Positions 11,483 to 38,353 of a stretch of 64,000 nt of DNA are shown here, piece after piece. The notes beneath the pieces are model-generated. The model worked only from the letters and a program-made list of their open reading frames with translations. It made no database searches and was not told where the DNA came from. Source of the stretch: Phyllobacterium sp. T1293 (GTDB taxonomy: Bacteria > Pseudomonadota > Alphaproteobacteria > Rhizobiales > Rhizobiaceae); the NCBI RefSeq assembly GCF_020731415.2, contig NZ_CP088273.1, positions 3,291,001-3,355,000 on the forward strand, read 5' to 3'. The stretch's first letter is position 1. Every line of letters begins with the position of its first letter. Made by a program: the position numbers and the translations under genes.

Positions 11483-11507
11483 AACGCTTCCGAAGAGACT
11501 TTGTTCC
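11483..11507 (-). promoter_or_regulatory. EcfG-type promoter for DUF1328
   Basis: Read on the minus strand, GGAAC (11507-11503), exactly 16 bases, then CGTT (11486-11483). This matches the GGAAC-N16/17-CGTT consensus of the alphaproteobacterial general stress sigma factor. It lies between the phyR stop codon and the DUF1328 start. Confidence 0.88.
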
Positions 11508-11542: not shown

Positions 11543-12337
11543 TTATGCCTTTGCCTTGCTGCTTTCCTTGAAGAACAATGCCTGTGTAATCAATGCCTTG
11601 ACCATATCAGGATTAAAAGGCTTGGTGACAAGGAAGGTTGGCTCCGGCCGTTCACCAGTCAGCAGCCGTTCCGGAAATGCAGTGATGAAGATAACAGGAA
11701 CAGCATCCTGGCTAAGGATATTGTTCACGGCATCGATACCCGAACTACCGTCGGCCAACTGGATGTCTGCAAGGATCATGCTGGGATGGGTCTGGGCATA
11801 TAGCTTGATCGCCTCATCCCGGGTACGGGCAATCCCGACGACCCGGTGGCCCAGGCTTTCAACCATGTGTTCGATATCCATGGCGATTAACGGCTCATCC
11901 TCGATGATCATGATATCGGTGGCAATCTGCTTGGAGATGCCGACAGAAGCCTCATCGAGCAGGCCATAGAGTTCCTGCTCATCAATATCCAGGATATCCA
12001 GTGTTTCGGCCTGACTGAATCCTTCAAGGCTGATGAGAAGGAAAGCCTGCCGCGCCCGTGGTGCGATGGCCGTCAGATTCGCTGCGGCATGCTTTTCCCA
12101 ACCGAATTCTGATTGCAGTTCGAGGGGGCGCACATTGACCGAGTTGAAATGCTTGATCAGCAGCTTGTAGAGACTGACGCGATCAGATGATGTTTCAGGG
12201 AAAAGGGAGACATCGCTGATGAGAATTTCAAGTGTGGCCGCCACATAGGCATCACCGGAGGACTGCGAACCGGTAATGGCACGAGCAAAACGACGAAGGT
12301 AGGGCAGATGAGGAGCGATCCGAGTGGACAATGACAT
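11543..12337 (-). CDS. phyR: General stress response anti-anti-sigma regulator PhyR
   Basis: PhyR has an N-terminal sigma-like domain and a C-terminal receiver. Phosphorylation frees the sigma-like domain to bind NepR and so releases EcfG. In this 264-residue protein the sigma-like part covers about 1-135, including ARQAFLLISLEGFSQAETLDILDI, the sigma4-like part. The receiver covers about 140-260 with acidic residues in MIIEDEPLIAMD, phosphoacceptor Asp in ILADIQLADGSSG and Lys in VTKPFNPD. An upstream in-frame GTG would start inside the promoter -10 element, so the ATG of MSLSTRIAPHLPYL is chosen. It is divergent from nepR-ecfG, the classic arrangement. Confidence 0.95.
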   Translation of the reverse strand: MSLSTRIAPHLPYLRRFARAITGSQSSGDAYVAATLEILISDVSLFPETSSDRVSLYKLLIKHFNSVNVRPLELQSEFGWEKHAAANLTAIAPRARQAFLLISLEGFSQAETLDILDIDEQELYGLLDEASVGISKQIATDIMIIEDEPLIAMDIEHMVESLGHRVVGIARTRDEAIKLYAQTHPSMILADIQLADGSSGIDAVNNILSQDAVPVIFITAFPERLLTGERPEPTFLVTKPFNPDMVKALITQALFFKESSKAKA

Positions 12338-12389
12338 TATGATGATTTCCCTGTTCCCCTTGGGGATATTGAAGAAGAATACGAACCAA

Positions 12390-12414
12390 AACACATTCGC
12401 GAAAAAAAAGTTCC
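12390..12414 (-). promoter_or_regulatory. Probable EcfG-type promoter for phyR
   Basis: On the minus strand GGAAC (12414-12410) is followed after 16 bases by TGTT (12393-12390), one mismatch from CGTT. The start codon of phyR lies about 50 bases downstream. Autoregulation of phyR by EcfG is well known in related bacteria. In the opposite direction GGAAC at 12423-12427 has only TATT at the right distance, a weaker candidate for nepR-ecfG. Confidence 0.65.
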
Positions 12415-12506
12415 CCGGTGACGGAACTTTTCGTCATCTAAAGTATTATCGACATTAATGTGCCTGCCAAAAGCTTTTGCGACGAACGACCAGCAAAGAT
12501 AGTAGA

Positions 12507-12710
12507 ATGAACGCAAACAAAAGTCTCTCCGACGGCCCTGACAAGGGACGCGTCCGCCGCCGCGACGTCAGAAACGCGGAATCAGAAATCGGTTTAAAGC
12601 TTCGAGCACTTTATGCCTCTGTTCAGGAGGAGGAAATCCCTGTGCGATTTCTGGACCTTTTGGAAAAGCTCGACGAAGCTGAACGCAACCATGCTCAGTC
12701 GTCAAAATAA
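12507..12710 (+). CDS. nepR: Anti-sigma factor NepR
   Basis: This short, mostly helical anti-sigma factor binds and holds the EcfG sigma factor until PhyR~P removes it. The 67-residue product has a basic, disordered N-terminus (GRVRRRDVRN) and the conserved NepR core IGLKLRALYASVQEEEIPVRFLDLLEKLDEAE at about residues 29-60. It begins at the ATG of MNANKSLSD; an upstream in-frame TTG is less likely. It is cotranscribed with ecfG 11 bases downstream and divergent from phyR. Confidence 0.93.
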   Translation: MNANKSLSDGPDKGRVRRRDVRNAESEIGLKLRALYASVQEEEIPVRFLDLLEKLDEAERNHAQSSK

Positions 12711-12721
12711 CAGGCGGTCGA

Positions 12722-13273
12722 ATGGTACATGAATCTCCTGATTTCAAGAGAAATCTGATTGCGTCGCTGCCCAAGCTGCGTGCTTTTGCCGTATCGCTGA
12801 TCGGCAACCCCGATCGCGCCGATGACCTTGTCCAGGACACGATCATGAAGGCGTGGGCCAAACAGGATTCTTTTGAGGCCGGTACCAACATCAAGGCTTG
12901 GCTGTTCACAATCCTGCGCAATGAATTTTATAGCCAGATGCGCAAACGCGGGCGTGAAGTGCAGGATTCCGACGGAATTTTCACTGAACAGCTCTCTGTG
13001 CATCCGGCACAATATGGATCACTCGATTTGCAGGATTTTCGCAAGGCTCTGGAAAAACTGCCCGATGATCAGCGCGAGGCAATTATTCTTGTTGGTGCAT
13101 CCGGCTTTTCCTATGAGGAAGCGGCCGATATTTGCGAATGCGCTGTCGGAACGATCAAGAGCCGGGTGAGCCGTGCGAGAACGCGATTGCAGGAGCTTCT
13201 TGATGTGCAGGGCGAGGTGGATTACGGACCCGACTCTATCTCCACGCAGGTTACTTCAAACAAATTTGCCTGA
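12722..13273 (+). CDS. ecfG: General stress response ECF sigma factor EcfG
   Basis: This ECF15-type sigma factor of 183 residues recognises GGAAC-N16/17-CGTT promoters. Region 2 (about 10-75) contains NPDRADDLVQDTIMKAWAKQDSFEAGTNIKAWLFTILRNEFYS. Region 4 (about 110-160) contains LPDDQREAIILVGASGFSYEEAADICECAVGTIKSRVSRARTRLQ, with the helix-turn-helix that reads the -35 element. Its 3' end overlaps the convergent receiver gene by 18 bases. At least ten matching or near-matching promoters lie in this window. Confidence 0.95.
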   Translation: MVHESPDFKRNLIASLPKLRAFAVSLIGNPDRADDLVQDTIMKAWAKQDSFEAGTNIKAWLFTILRNEFYSQMRKRGREVQDSDGIFTEQLSVHPAQYGSLDLQDFRKALEKLPDDQREAIILVGASGFSYEEAADICECAVGTIKSRVSRARTRLQELLDVQGEVDYGPDSISTQVTSNKFA

Positions 13274-20325: not shown

Positions 20326-22278
20326 ATGCCTTCTGAAACGACGCGGAAGACTTCGCCTCGCGCGGTAGAGCGCGTTACGCAAAAATCAGTTTATGCGCCG
20401 AGCCAGGCTGAGATTGACGGGCGAATGCAATTTCCGCCCGTTATTGTTGCCATTGCCGTGATTGGTGCGCTCTATTTTGCCCGTGATATTTTGGTGCCGC
20501 TCGCCTTGGCACTGCTCTTGACCTTTGCCCTGTCGCCTTTGGTCACTTATCTCCATCGCTTCGGAATTCCGAAAGTTCTGTCGGTTATCAGCGTTGTGCT
20601 GACTGCCTTTATCGCAATATTCCTGTTTGCCACGATTGTGGTTGGCCAGTTGACGGTGCTGGCGCAGAATTTGCCAAGTTATCAGTATAATATCGAGGCG
20701 AAGATCCGGACCATCAAAGATGCTCAGTCGGGCAACGGTGTTTTTGATCGCGGCGTGCGCATGTTCAAACGCCTTGGCGAGGAAATTGGCCGGTCCGATG
20801 AAGTGGAGCGGTTTGCTGCCAACAATAATGAGGATCAAAAGGCCCAGCCGCCGCAAAATGTGGCACCGGCGGACCAGCAAAACCGGGCCCCTCTGCGCAA
20901 GGACGATCCCGACAAGCCCGTTCCGGTGGAAATTCGCTATCCTGCGCCTGATCCCCTGCAATTGCTGCAAACCGTTGCCGGACCCTTGATCCAGCCATTA
21001 GCCACGGTTGGCATTGTCGTTGTGTTTGTCATCTTCATGTTGCTGCGGCGCGAGGATTTGCGTGATCGCTTTATAAAGCTCGTAGGAGCCAGCGATATTC
21101 ATCGCACGACTACAGCCTTGCATGATGCGGGCAAGCGTGTCGGCCAATATCTCCTGATGCAGTTGGTAATCAATATCTGCTTTGGTGTTCCGATCGGGAT
21201 TGGTCTTTGGCTTATCGGTATTCCCAATCCCATGCTTTGGGGGCTTCTGGCGATTGCGCTGCGCTTTGTGCCCTATATCGGCCCATTCATCGCCGCGTCT
21301 TTCCCGCTTATTCTTGCACTGGCGGTCGACCCCGGCTGGATGCTTTTGCTGTGGACCGCTGCCCTGTTCATCGTTCTGGAACTTATCAGCAACAACATTA
21401 TGGAGCCTGTGCTTTATGGTTCAAGGACCGGGCTCTCGCCGGTTGCCATTCTGCTCGCGGCCATTGTCTGGACCTGGATATGGGGTCCTATCGGACTTCT
21501 TCTTTCCACTCCCCTGACCGTGTGTCTTGTCGTGCTTGGCCGCCATGTGCCGCGCTTCGAGTTTCTCGATGTGCTGCTGGGCAATGAGCCTGTGCTTTTG
21601 CCGCCACAACAGCTTTATCAGCGGTTATTATCAGGTGATCCTGATGAAGCCACGGAGAAGGCAGAAGACTATCTCCAGTCGTCAACAATCAGCGATTATT
21701 ATGTATCGGTTGCTGTCCCCGCACTGTTTCTCGCCGAGCACGACCGGGGGCGGGGTGTGCTGGATGCGTCCCGTCGCGGCCGGGTTGTGCAGAGCATGAT
21801 ACGCCTCGTTGAAAACCTATCCGATCATGAGGATATGGAAGAGGAAGCAGAGGAGGGTGCTAGGAGTGCCGACCCTGCACAAGCAAAGGACGATACAACC
21901 AAAAAACCGAAGACGATCATCTCGGCGGGCGGGCGTGGCAATCTTGACGATGCAGCGGCAGTAATTGTTGGAGACATTCTGGAGCGGCAGGATTTCGATG
22001 TTCGTGACATTACCCACGATGAACTTGAGACCGTTAATATCGATAAACTTGATCTTACCGATGCGAGCGCTGTTTATGTAAGCTATCTCAACACGTCTTC
22101 CATAGCGCATGCCCGCTATCTCGTTCGCCGGATACGGCGGCGCAACGCGCGCATTAAAATCATCATCGGGTTCTGGGCGGAAGATTCCGGGAATGTCGAG
22201 GGTGAAAAGATCGTTGGGTCGACCAAAAATTGCTATTTTTCCTCGTCTATCAAAGAAGCTGTCGCTTTGATTGCCTAA
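20326..22278 (+). CDS. AI-2E family transporter (PerM-like) with extra C-terminal cytoplasmic domain
   Basis: The 650-residue protein has eight-helix PerM/AI-2E exporter features: VIVAIAVIGALYFARDILVPLALALLLTFALSPLV near the N-terminus, then helices around 70-105, 215-240 and 285-410, with a P-rich loop at about 160-200. Typical members are 350-400 residues. Here about 230 residues follow the last helix: an acidic linker (about 495-530) and a terminal alpha/beta domain (about 535-650, GRGNLDDAAAVIVGDILERQDFDVRDI and KIIIGFWAED). That domain resembles a Rossmann-like or B12-binding fold but lacks the cobalamin DxHxxG motif. Substrate unknown. It borders the stress island but has no clear EcfG-type promoter. 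Confidence 0.83.
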   Translation: MPSETTRKTSPRAVERVTQKSVYAPSQAEIDGRMQFPPVIVAIAVIGALYFARDILVPLALALLLTFALSPLVTYLHRFGIPKVLSVISVVLTAFIAIFLFATIVVGQLTVLAQNLPSYQYNIEAKIRTIKDAQSGNGVFDRGVRMFKRLGEEIGRSDEVERFAANNNEDQKAQPPQNVAPADQQNRAPLRKDDPDKPVPVEIRYPAPDPLQLLQTVAGPLIQPLATVGIVVVFVIFMLLRREDLRDRFIKLVGASDIHRTTTALHDAGKRVGQYLLMQLVINICFGVPIGIGLWLIGIPNPMLWGLLAIALRFVPYIGPFIAASFPLILALAVDPGWMLLLWTAALFIVLELISNNIMEPVLYGSRTGLSPVAILLAAIVWTWIWGPIGLLLSTPLTVCLVVLGRHVPRFEFLDVLLGNEPVLLPPQQLYQRLLSGDPDEATEKAEDYLQSSTISDYYVSVAVPALFLAEHDRGRGVLDASRRGRVVQSMIRLVENLSDHEDMEEEAEEGARSADPAQAKDDTTKKPKTIISAGGRGNLDDAAAVIVGDILERQDFDVRDITHDELETVNIDKLDLTDASAVYVSYLNTSSIAHARYLVRRIRRRNARIKIIIGFWAEDSGNVEGEKIVGSTKNCYFSSSIKEAVALIA

Positions 22279-22293
22279 AGCAATAATTTGATG

Positions 22294-22318
22294 GGAACCA
22301 AGACAATTCTGTGACGTT
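22294..22318 (+). promoter_or_regulatory. EcfG-type promoter with no protein gene behind it
   Basis: GGAAC (22294-22298), 16 bases, CGTT (22315-22318): a perfect consensus match. It starts 16 bases after the AI-2E transporter stop codon. A strong terminator begins about 30 bases beyond the predicted transcription start, before any coding frame, so it probably makes a short RNA. Confidence 0.85.
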
Positions 22319-22324
22319 TCGGAT

Positions 22325-22394
22325 TAGCTGATCACATGGTGGTCGGTACGTTCAGAACCCGGCGCCTGTTCCCCCGTGGGCGCCGGGTTTTCTC
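22325..22394 (+). ncRNA. Candidate EcfG-dependent small RNA with C-rich terminator loop
   Basis: The predicted start is about seven bases after the promoter -10 element and the end is the T run of the terminator, giving about 70 nt. The 5' part (about 30 nt) is single-stranded-looking. The 3' hairpin has an 11-base-pair stem and a 12-base loop that contains TTCCCCC. C-rich loops pair with Shine-Dalgarno sequences in several alphaproteobacterial sRNAs, and GsrN of Caulobacter is a precedent for a stress-sigma-controlled sRNA. No start codon with a ribosome site lies in it. The alternative is that it is only a terminator for the upstream gene with a chance promoter, but the promoter match is exact. 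Confidence 0.65.
22356..22394 (+). terminator. Strong intrinsic terminator
   Basis: AACCCGGCGCC (22356-22366) pairs perfectly with GGCGCCGGGTT (22379-22389), followed by TTCT. It would end both the AI-2E transporter mRNA and the candidate small RNA. Confidence 0.85.
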
Positions 22395-22452
22395 GTATAA
22401 AAAATTCATATTTCACTTTATTTTCAATATCTTGAATATTTCGTTGGCCGTT

Positions 22453-22477
22453 GGAACCTGATGCCATGTGGGCCGTT
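22453..22477 (+). promoter_or_regulatory. EcfG-type promoter for the csbD-like gene
   Basis: GGAAC (22453-22457), 16 bases, CGTT (22474-22477): a perfect match 36 bases before the csbD-like ATG. Confidence 0.9.
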
Positions 22478-22512: not shown

Positions 22513-22704
22513 ATGGGTAGCACAAGTGACAAGATTTCCGGACTTGCAAACAAGGCAGCCGGTAACATCAAACAGGCAGCTGGCAAGGCGACAGGTTCGA
22601 CGAAACTGCAAGCCGAAGGCAAGGCTCAGGAGCTGAAGGGCGATGCCCAGCAGATGAAGGGCAAGGCCAAGGATGCGGTCAAAAAGGTCGTTGACCGGGC
22701 GTAA
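22513..22704 (+). CDS. CsbD family stress protein
   Basis: The 63-residue, very Lys/Ala/Gly-rich hydrophilic protein starts [24 protein letters not shown] and has [19 protein letters not shown] repeats, the CsbD pattern of tandem amphipathic eleven-residue units. CsbD proteins are among the most strongly induced general stress proteins in many bacteria, but their activity is unknown. AAGGAG lies eight bases before the ATG. It is monocistronic between its own EcfG-type promoter and terminator. Confidence 0.92.
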
Positions 22705-38328: not shown

Positions 38329-38353
38329 GGAACTCCTTCTGAATTGTACCGTT
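38329..38353 (+). promoter_or_regulatory. EcfG-type promoter for the exported superoxide dismutase
   Basis: GGAAC (38329-38333), 16 bases, CGTT (38350-38353): a perfect match 72 bases before the start codon. It lies far from the main stress island. The rest of the 300-base gap back to kgtP shows nothing clear. Confidence 0.88.

Follow-up and report, generated by a model that had tools for sequence, protein, structure and literature searches.

A short RNA gene is very probably present at 22325 to about 22396 of the window (the whole 64,000-nucleotide stretch of DNA analyzed here), and we consider it best explained, with a probability of roughly 0.6, as a trans-acting small RNA (sRNA) that depends on the sigma factor EcfG and pairs through a C-rich loop with G-rich start regions. 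We infer that the element is transcribed, that its ends lie as listed in Table 1 and that pairing is its mechanism. RNA polymerase with EcfG, the general-stress sigma factor encoded ~9 kb away, would transcribe an RNA of ~70 nt, in which hairpin 1 would shield the 5' end, while hairpin 2 would terminate or protect the RNA and present the fixed loop UUCCCCCG. In stress, this loop would pair with G-rich stretches of the GGGGGAAC type around ribosome-binding sites and thereby alter the translation or stability of the target mRNAs, comparable to the C-rich loops of GsrN and NfeR1. Such a well-bounded, genus-wide RNA would join the small set of sRNAs linked to the alphaproteobacterial general stress response (GSR), and its single 8-nt loop would allow a clean test of target choice by a C-rich loop.

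Table 1. Features of the RNA element and its surroundings (positions within the window).
Feature	Position	Strand	Basis and remarks
phyR, general-stress anti-anti-sigma factor	11543..12337	-	NF006623, 375.9 bits, above cut-off
nepR-like anti-sigma gene	12507..12710	+	Position and motif; NF051865 only 24.3 bits, cut-off 100
ecfG-type sigma factor gene	12722..13273	+	NF009169, 355.1 bits, above cut-off; named from its place beside phyR/nepR
AI-2E family transporter gene, upstream	20326..22278	+	PF01594, 177.6 bits
P1, sigma-EcfG-type promoter	22294..22318	+	-35 GGAAC 22294-22298, -10 CGTT 22315-22318; exact GGAAC-N16-CGTT match
Predicted sRNA, ~70 nt	22325..22396 (end approximate)	+	Start set by the typical spacing after the -10 and 3' end by hairpin 2, both inferred
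Hairpin 1	22327..22347	+	Sequence variable, pairing kept; 97.6% of cells paired, 2 pairs changed on both sides
Hairpin 2, terminator-like, weak U-tract	22356..22389	+	100% of cells paired, 3 pairs changed on both sides
Loop UUCCCCCG, invariant, presumed working part	22369..22376	+	Within hairpin 2; surrounding 16-mer identical in 20/21 loci
P2, separate sigma-EcfG-type promoter of csbD	22453..22477	+	Exact match; in 20/21 loci
csbD, downstream	22513..22704	+	PF05532, 66.3 bits; at the locus in 19/20 relatives, absent in L031

The window belongs to the genus Phyllobacterium; the protein encoded by the upstream AI-2E gene is 99% identical to that of Phyllobacterium sp. OV277. With this protein, 19 loci were found, of which 15 were assigned to Phyllobacterium, one to Candidatus Phyllobacterium, two to 'Rhizobiales bacterium' and one to a distant Rhodobacter metagenome-assembled genome (MAG). 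The element itself was matched in 20 of 20 genomes of the genus, even though in six of them BLAST recovered only the last hairpin. By reading the sequences, we obtained the full element in 21 loci (the window, L027-L044, L023 and L025), one of which, L028, lies outside the 20 genomes. The pattern GGAAC-N16/17-CGTT was kept in every one of these 21 loci, and the perfect general-stress promoter that an earlier, sequence-only reading had proposed for the window is indeed exact and on the forward strand. Sites of this type (GGAAC-N15-18-CGTT) occur nine times in the window compared to 2.19 expected, a number that none of 100 shuffles reached. Three more exact matches are found on the forward strand at 38329, 40687 and 50929, while the minus-strand site at 11483 faces, by reading of the sequence, a small membrane-protein frame and therefore does not mark a second sRNA.

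The earlier claim that no protein gene follows the promoter likewise held, given that no ORF of at least 60 aa overlaps 22294-22394 on either strand or covers the element between the stop codon of the AI-2E gene (22278) and csbD (22513). An ATG at 22336 opens a 41-codon frame in the window; a small protein as the product was rejected, since an ATG lies inside the RNA in only 4 of the 21 loci. We also discarded an EcfG promoter on the opposite strand running through GGGGGAAC, which was present in none of the 21 loci.

Conservation was distributed unevenly along the element. Pairwise identity among the 21 aligned loci was 0.99 at the -35 (GGAACCAAG) and 0.98 at the -10 (CGTTT), with 0.46 in the spacer; within the RNA, hairpin 2 reached 0.92, with 25 invariant columns out of 34, and the loop region 0.98, compared to 0.70 in hairpin 1 and 0.44 in the linker, and in the flanks of the element identity was 0.30-0.38. 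Frozen -35, -10 and loop segments beside variable flanks are the pattern of a promoter followed by an RNA with one working loop. The sequence-only reading had made its candidate depend on conservation of the promoter and the loop in related species, and this was what we observed: all loci keep the promoter and 20 of 21 carry an identical CCTGTTCCCCCGTGGG, the exception being L029 with TGTGCCCCCCGTG. A covariance-model search, also suggested at that time, was run as model R1 and matched eight genomes of the same genus at 78-90 bits. At the level of sequence, these comparisons establish that the promoter, the helices and the loop are under selection across the genus, and they strongly support the proposal of a non-coding RNA of ~70 nt behind a sigma-EcfG promoter.

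When the strand was folded from position 22325, the predicted energy was -38.8 kcal/mol (z of -4.9), and none of 200 shuffles was as low. Alignment A1 and model R1 comprised 18 of 19 distinct sequences, with L021 omitted as a near-copy of L019 and L023 absent because it did not fit the first pattern. Over both helices, standard pairs were formed in 99.1% of the cells of these 18 sequences, and 5 of 19 pairs changed on both sides; sliding the partners as a control lowered the paired cells to 28-45%. In the shuffle control, paired cells, double changes and the covariation score passed (0/500 each), the number of double-change pairs passed in part (24/500) and the number of pair types failed (133/500). 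RNAalifold, unprompted, returned the same two helices, one or two pairs longer. The element thus has the sequence features of a putative EcfG-dependent sRNA, namely a sigma-EcfG-type promoter upstream of a predicted non-coding RNA whose helices covary. Hairpin 1, which was missing from the sequence-only reading, has no invariant column among the eight of its loop. In hairpin 2, 8 of 12 pairs never vary, including the stem pairs adjoining the loop, and since UUCCCCCG is the only invariant unpaired stretch, it is likely the working part.

The description of hairpin 2 as a strong terminator was borne out for its stem, which is very stable and paired throughout, but not for its tail: among the eight bases that follow CCGGG, the 21 loci have no more than 2-6 T residues (5 in the window), and the hairpin is absent from the list of the consensus terminator scan. 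Its outer pairs alternate between A-U and G-C at the expense of the T-run. What is preserved is the stem rather than the U-tract, and termination at hairpin 2 may be leaky in many species.

The phyR-nepR-ecfG genes (11543-13273), which the sequence-only reading did not mention, are located ~9 kb from the RNA element in the same window, separated from it by two HisKA_2/HWE histidine kinases and by small genes encoding DUF883, PRC-barrel and DUF3309 domains. On the other side, csbD is the next gene in 19 of 20 relatives, P1 and P2 are both of the EcfG type and many relatives have only a weak T-run behind hairpin 2, all of which would fit a cis-acting csbD leader, whereby readthrough from P1 past the poorly U-tailed hairpin 2 would yield a long structured 5' UTR and P2 a short one. 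This explanation became highly improbable because of P. brassicacearum STM 196, where csbD is missing from the 9,950-base locus (L031; 6002-6901), even though P1, the two hairpins and their loop UUCCCCCG have remained intact; csbD is therefore not the reason for the conservation of the element, which is not a csbD leader there. In addition, the sequence from hairpin 2 to P2 is unconserved (0.30-0.38), and in 20 of 21 loci csbD is preceded by a promoter of its own. That the hairpin serves solely to end transcription of the AI-2E gene, and that the promoter next to it is a relic or arose by chance, would agree with a very stable stem that starts 78 bases after the stop codon. We regard this as scarcely credible, given promoter elements of 0.98-0.99 identity against flanks of 0.30, an invariant loop that a terminator does not need and outer pairs in which G-C replaces A-U to the detriment of the T-run.

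Alternatively, the element might be a real EcfG-dependent sRNA whose loop binds a protein or another RNA (as a sponge) instead of mRNA start regions. The frozen stem pairs next to the loop and the weakness of the target evidence described below point in this direction; we nevertheless consider it rather unlikely, as GsrN and NfeR1 are both reported to use C-rich loops for pairing with G-rich sites in mRNAs (PMC5869019, PMC10746234). Given the gene, pairing by the loop is, on the strength of this analogy, probably the mode of action of the RNA.

GsrN of Caulobacter crescentus uses a C-rich loop to pair with G-rich mRNA sites; its description reports BLASTn matches only in Caulobacteraceae and proposes GsrN-like RNAs for Rhizobiaceae (PMC5869019). 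The sequence-only reading had cited GsrN as a precedent at a different locus, which applies to C. crescentus itself but not to most gsrN homologues: according to the same publication, these are typically found near GSR core genes, with C. crescentus being the exception (PMC5869019), and the Phyllobacterium RNA, ~9 kb from phyR-nepR-ecfG, resembles them in this respect. It also shares with GsrN a sigma-EcfG-type promoter and the strongest conservation in a C-rich loop. In contrast, and comparing descriptions rather than sequences, its C-loop is located on the 3' hairpin and that of GsrN at the 5' end; it has five C residues (six in L029) versus six in GsrN, and the loop of its hairpin 1 is variable. 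For NfeR1, CCUCCUCCC loops acting at the ntrB start region and Hfq-independent pairing at start regions were reported (PMC10746234). As described, ar14/NfeR1 and other Rhizobiales RNAs with the anti-Shine-Dalgarno sequence CCUCCUCCC (RF02344; PMC10746234, PMC3927594) resemble the element in having C-rich hairpin loops, one of them terminator-like, and in stems that vary around fixed loops; they differ by three CCUCCUCCC loops versus the single C-loop UUCCCCCG and by a sigma-70-type instead of an EcfG-type promoter.

No Rfam family was found above threshold at the element. Its assignment to ar14 (RF02344) was rejected at 17.6 bits against a gathering cut-off of 58.8, and that to 6C RNA (RF01066) at 19.1 bits against 47; true ar14 copies exist elsewhere, with 4-7 ar14 matches per genome. 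Given the C-loop on the 3' hairpin and the low ar14 score, we filed the RNA under neither GsrN nor NfeR1. The best reading, by analogy, is still that it would work like GsrN or NfeR1. In the related genus Sinorhizobium, a study on S. meliloti RpoE2 lists sigma-E2 motifs upstream of 23 sRNAs (PMC3616915), to which the element is similar in kind, as a predicted stress-sigma-driven sRNA. The element also suggests that stress RNAs with C-rich loops beside GSR core genes recur with differing architecture. A narrow literature search for the genus found no publication that joins Phyllobacterium, small RNA and general stress.

As candidate targets of the loop, we compared the start regions of 12 gene sets, including the TRIC-family channel gene and phyR, which were picked because of matches in the window genome. 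Using unique start regions only and single-letter shuffling, duplex z averaged -2.29 for TRIC and -2.52 for phyR, with the other ten sets between -1.33 and +0.88. A complement to the loop of at least 7 nt was present in the TRIC start region in 11 of 20 genomes; for phyR, at least 6 nt were found in 14 of 20 and at least 5 nt in all 20. Complements of at least 6 nt are likewise carried by the start regions of TGase (6/12) and AI-2E (7/18). Other genera argue against these targets: the phyR duplex is predicted to be just as stable in S. meliloti (-10.0 kcal/mol) and Shinella (-10.8 kcal/mol) as in Phyllobacterium (median -10.2), with no such RNA found near phyR in those two. For TRIC, other genera showed GGGGAA (Shinella), GGGGAAC (an Aminobacter plasmid) or nothing comparable (S. 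meliloti), and in the only genome with a changed loop (G307) the TRIC site has no matching change.

Across the genome, GGGGGAAC-N3-12-ATG sites numbered 12, as opposed to 3 for the reversed-pattern control. Five of these 12 head ORFs of at least 217 aa (L126, L127 (TRIC), L129 (rhomboid), L131 and L132), and the comparison across genomes covered L127 and L129; the rhomboid gene was rejected as a target, since no more than the 5 closest of 20 genomes retain its site. These data only suggest the TRIC-family start region as the best candidate target, and phyR as the second. A genus-specific stress sRNA that is made by EcfG, holds all of its information in the loop of a single terminator hairpin and pairs with the TRIC start region and that of phyR, the activator of EcfG, would close a circuit on the stress response; we consider this quite improbable.

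Outside the genus, a DNA search of 297 family genomes yielded no clear homologue: five of seven matches belonged to the genus, and the two others (L007 and L008) were dismissed as chance-like on reading. Model R1, applied to 394 family genomes with stricter filters and 12 candidates scored per genome, also gave no clear homologue beyond the genus, the best score after the eight same-genus genomes being 34.3 bits. This absence rests on samples of genomes and on strict filters. Two pattern searches were too narrow, as their patterns recognized just one of the 21 loci that carry the element, and their tallies of 1/297 and 2/199 say little; the second match of the latter (G014) corresponds to L060. 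The 22 non-genus R1 loci that we read (L054-L075, weaker matches excluded) were mostly terminator-like hairpins; four of the 22 loci (L057, L062, L071 and L072) have CCTCCTCCC loops, and an EcfG-like promoter (GGAAC-N16-GGTT) was seen only in L068. L060 and L068, from two other genera of the family, share a CCTGTTCCC(C/T)CG hairpin apex and are possibly distant relatives or a case of convergence. In S. meliloti and Shinella, no clear homologue was found up to ~14 kb from phyR, and R1 had no match in the 28.8 kb of S. meliloti sequence surrounding phyR (rsiB1). The search downstream of AI-2E genes in other genera, where 26 of 28 loci could be read, likewise gave no clear homologue: three loci (L092, L093 and L097) have an EcfG-like site, and none has a C-run within 110 nt. 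An EcfG-like site (GGAACCAAG...CGTT) also follows the AI-2E homologue in the Rhodobacter MAG (L045).

Some variation was also seen around csbD. In L031, P2 is still present and is followed, by reading, by a DUF768 gene, with no transglutaminase gene. In genome G311 (L023, 1380-1640), the csbD ATG directly follows the -10 of P2, which leaves out the usual leader and may make the mRNA almost leaderless. Upstream of P2 in the window, at 22420-22445, there is an AT-rich imperfect palindrome, TTCAA-N4-TTGAA (TTTTCAATATCTTGAATATTTC), with similar sequences in L028, L029 and L037, which is perhaps a regulator site.
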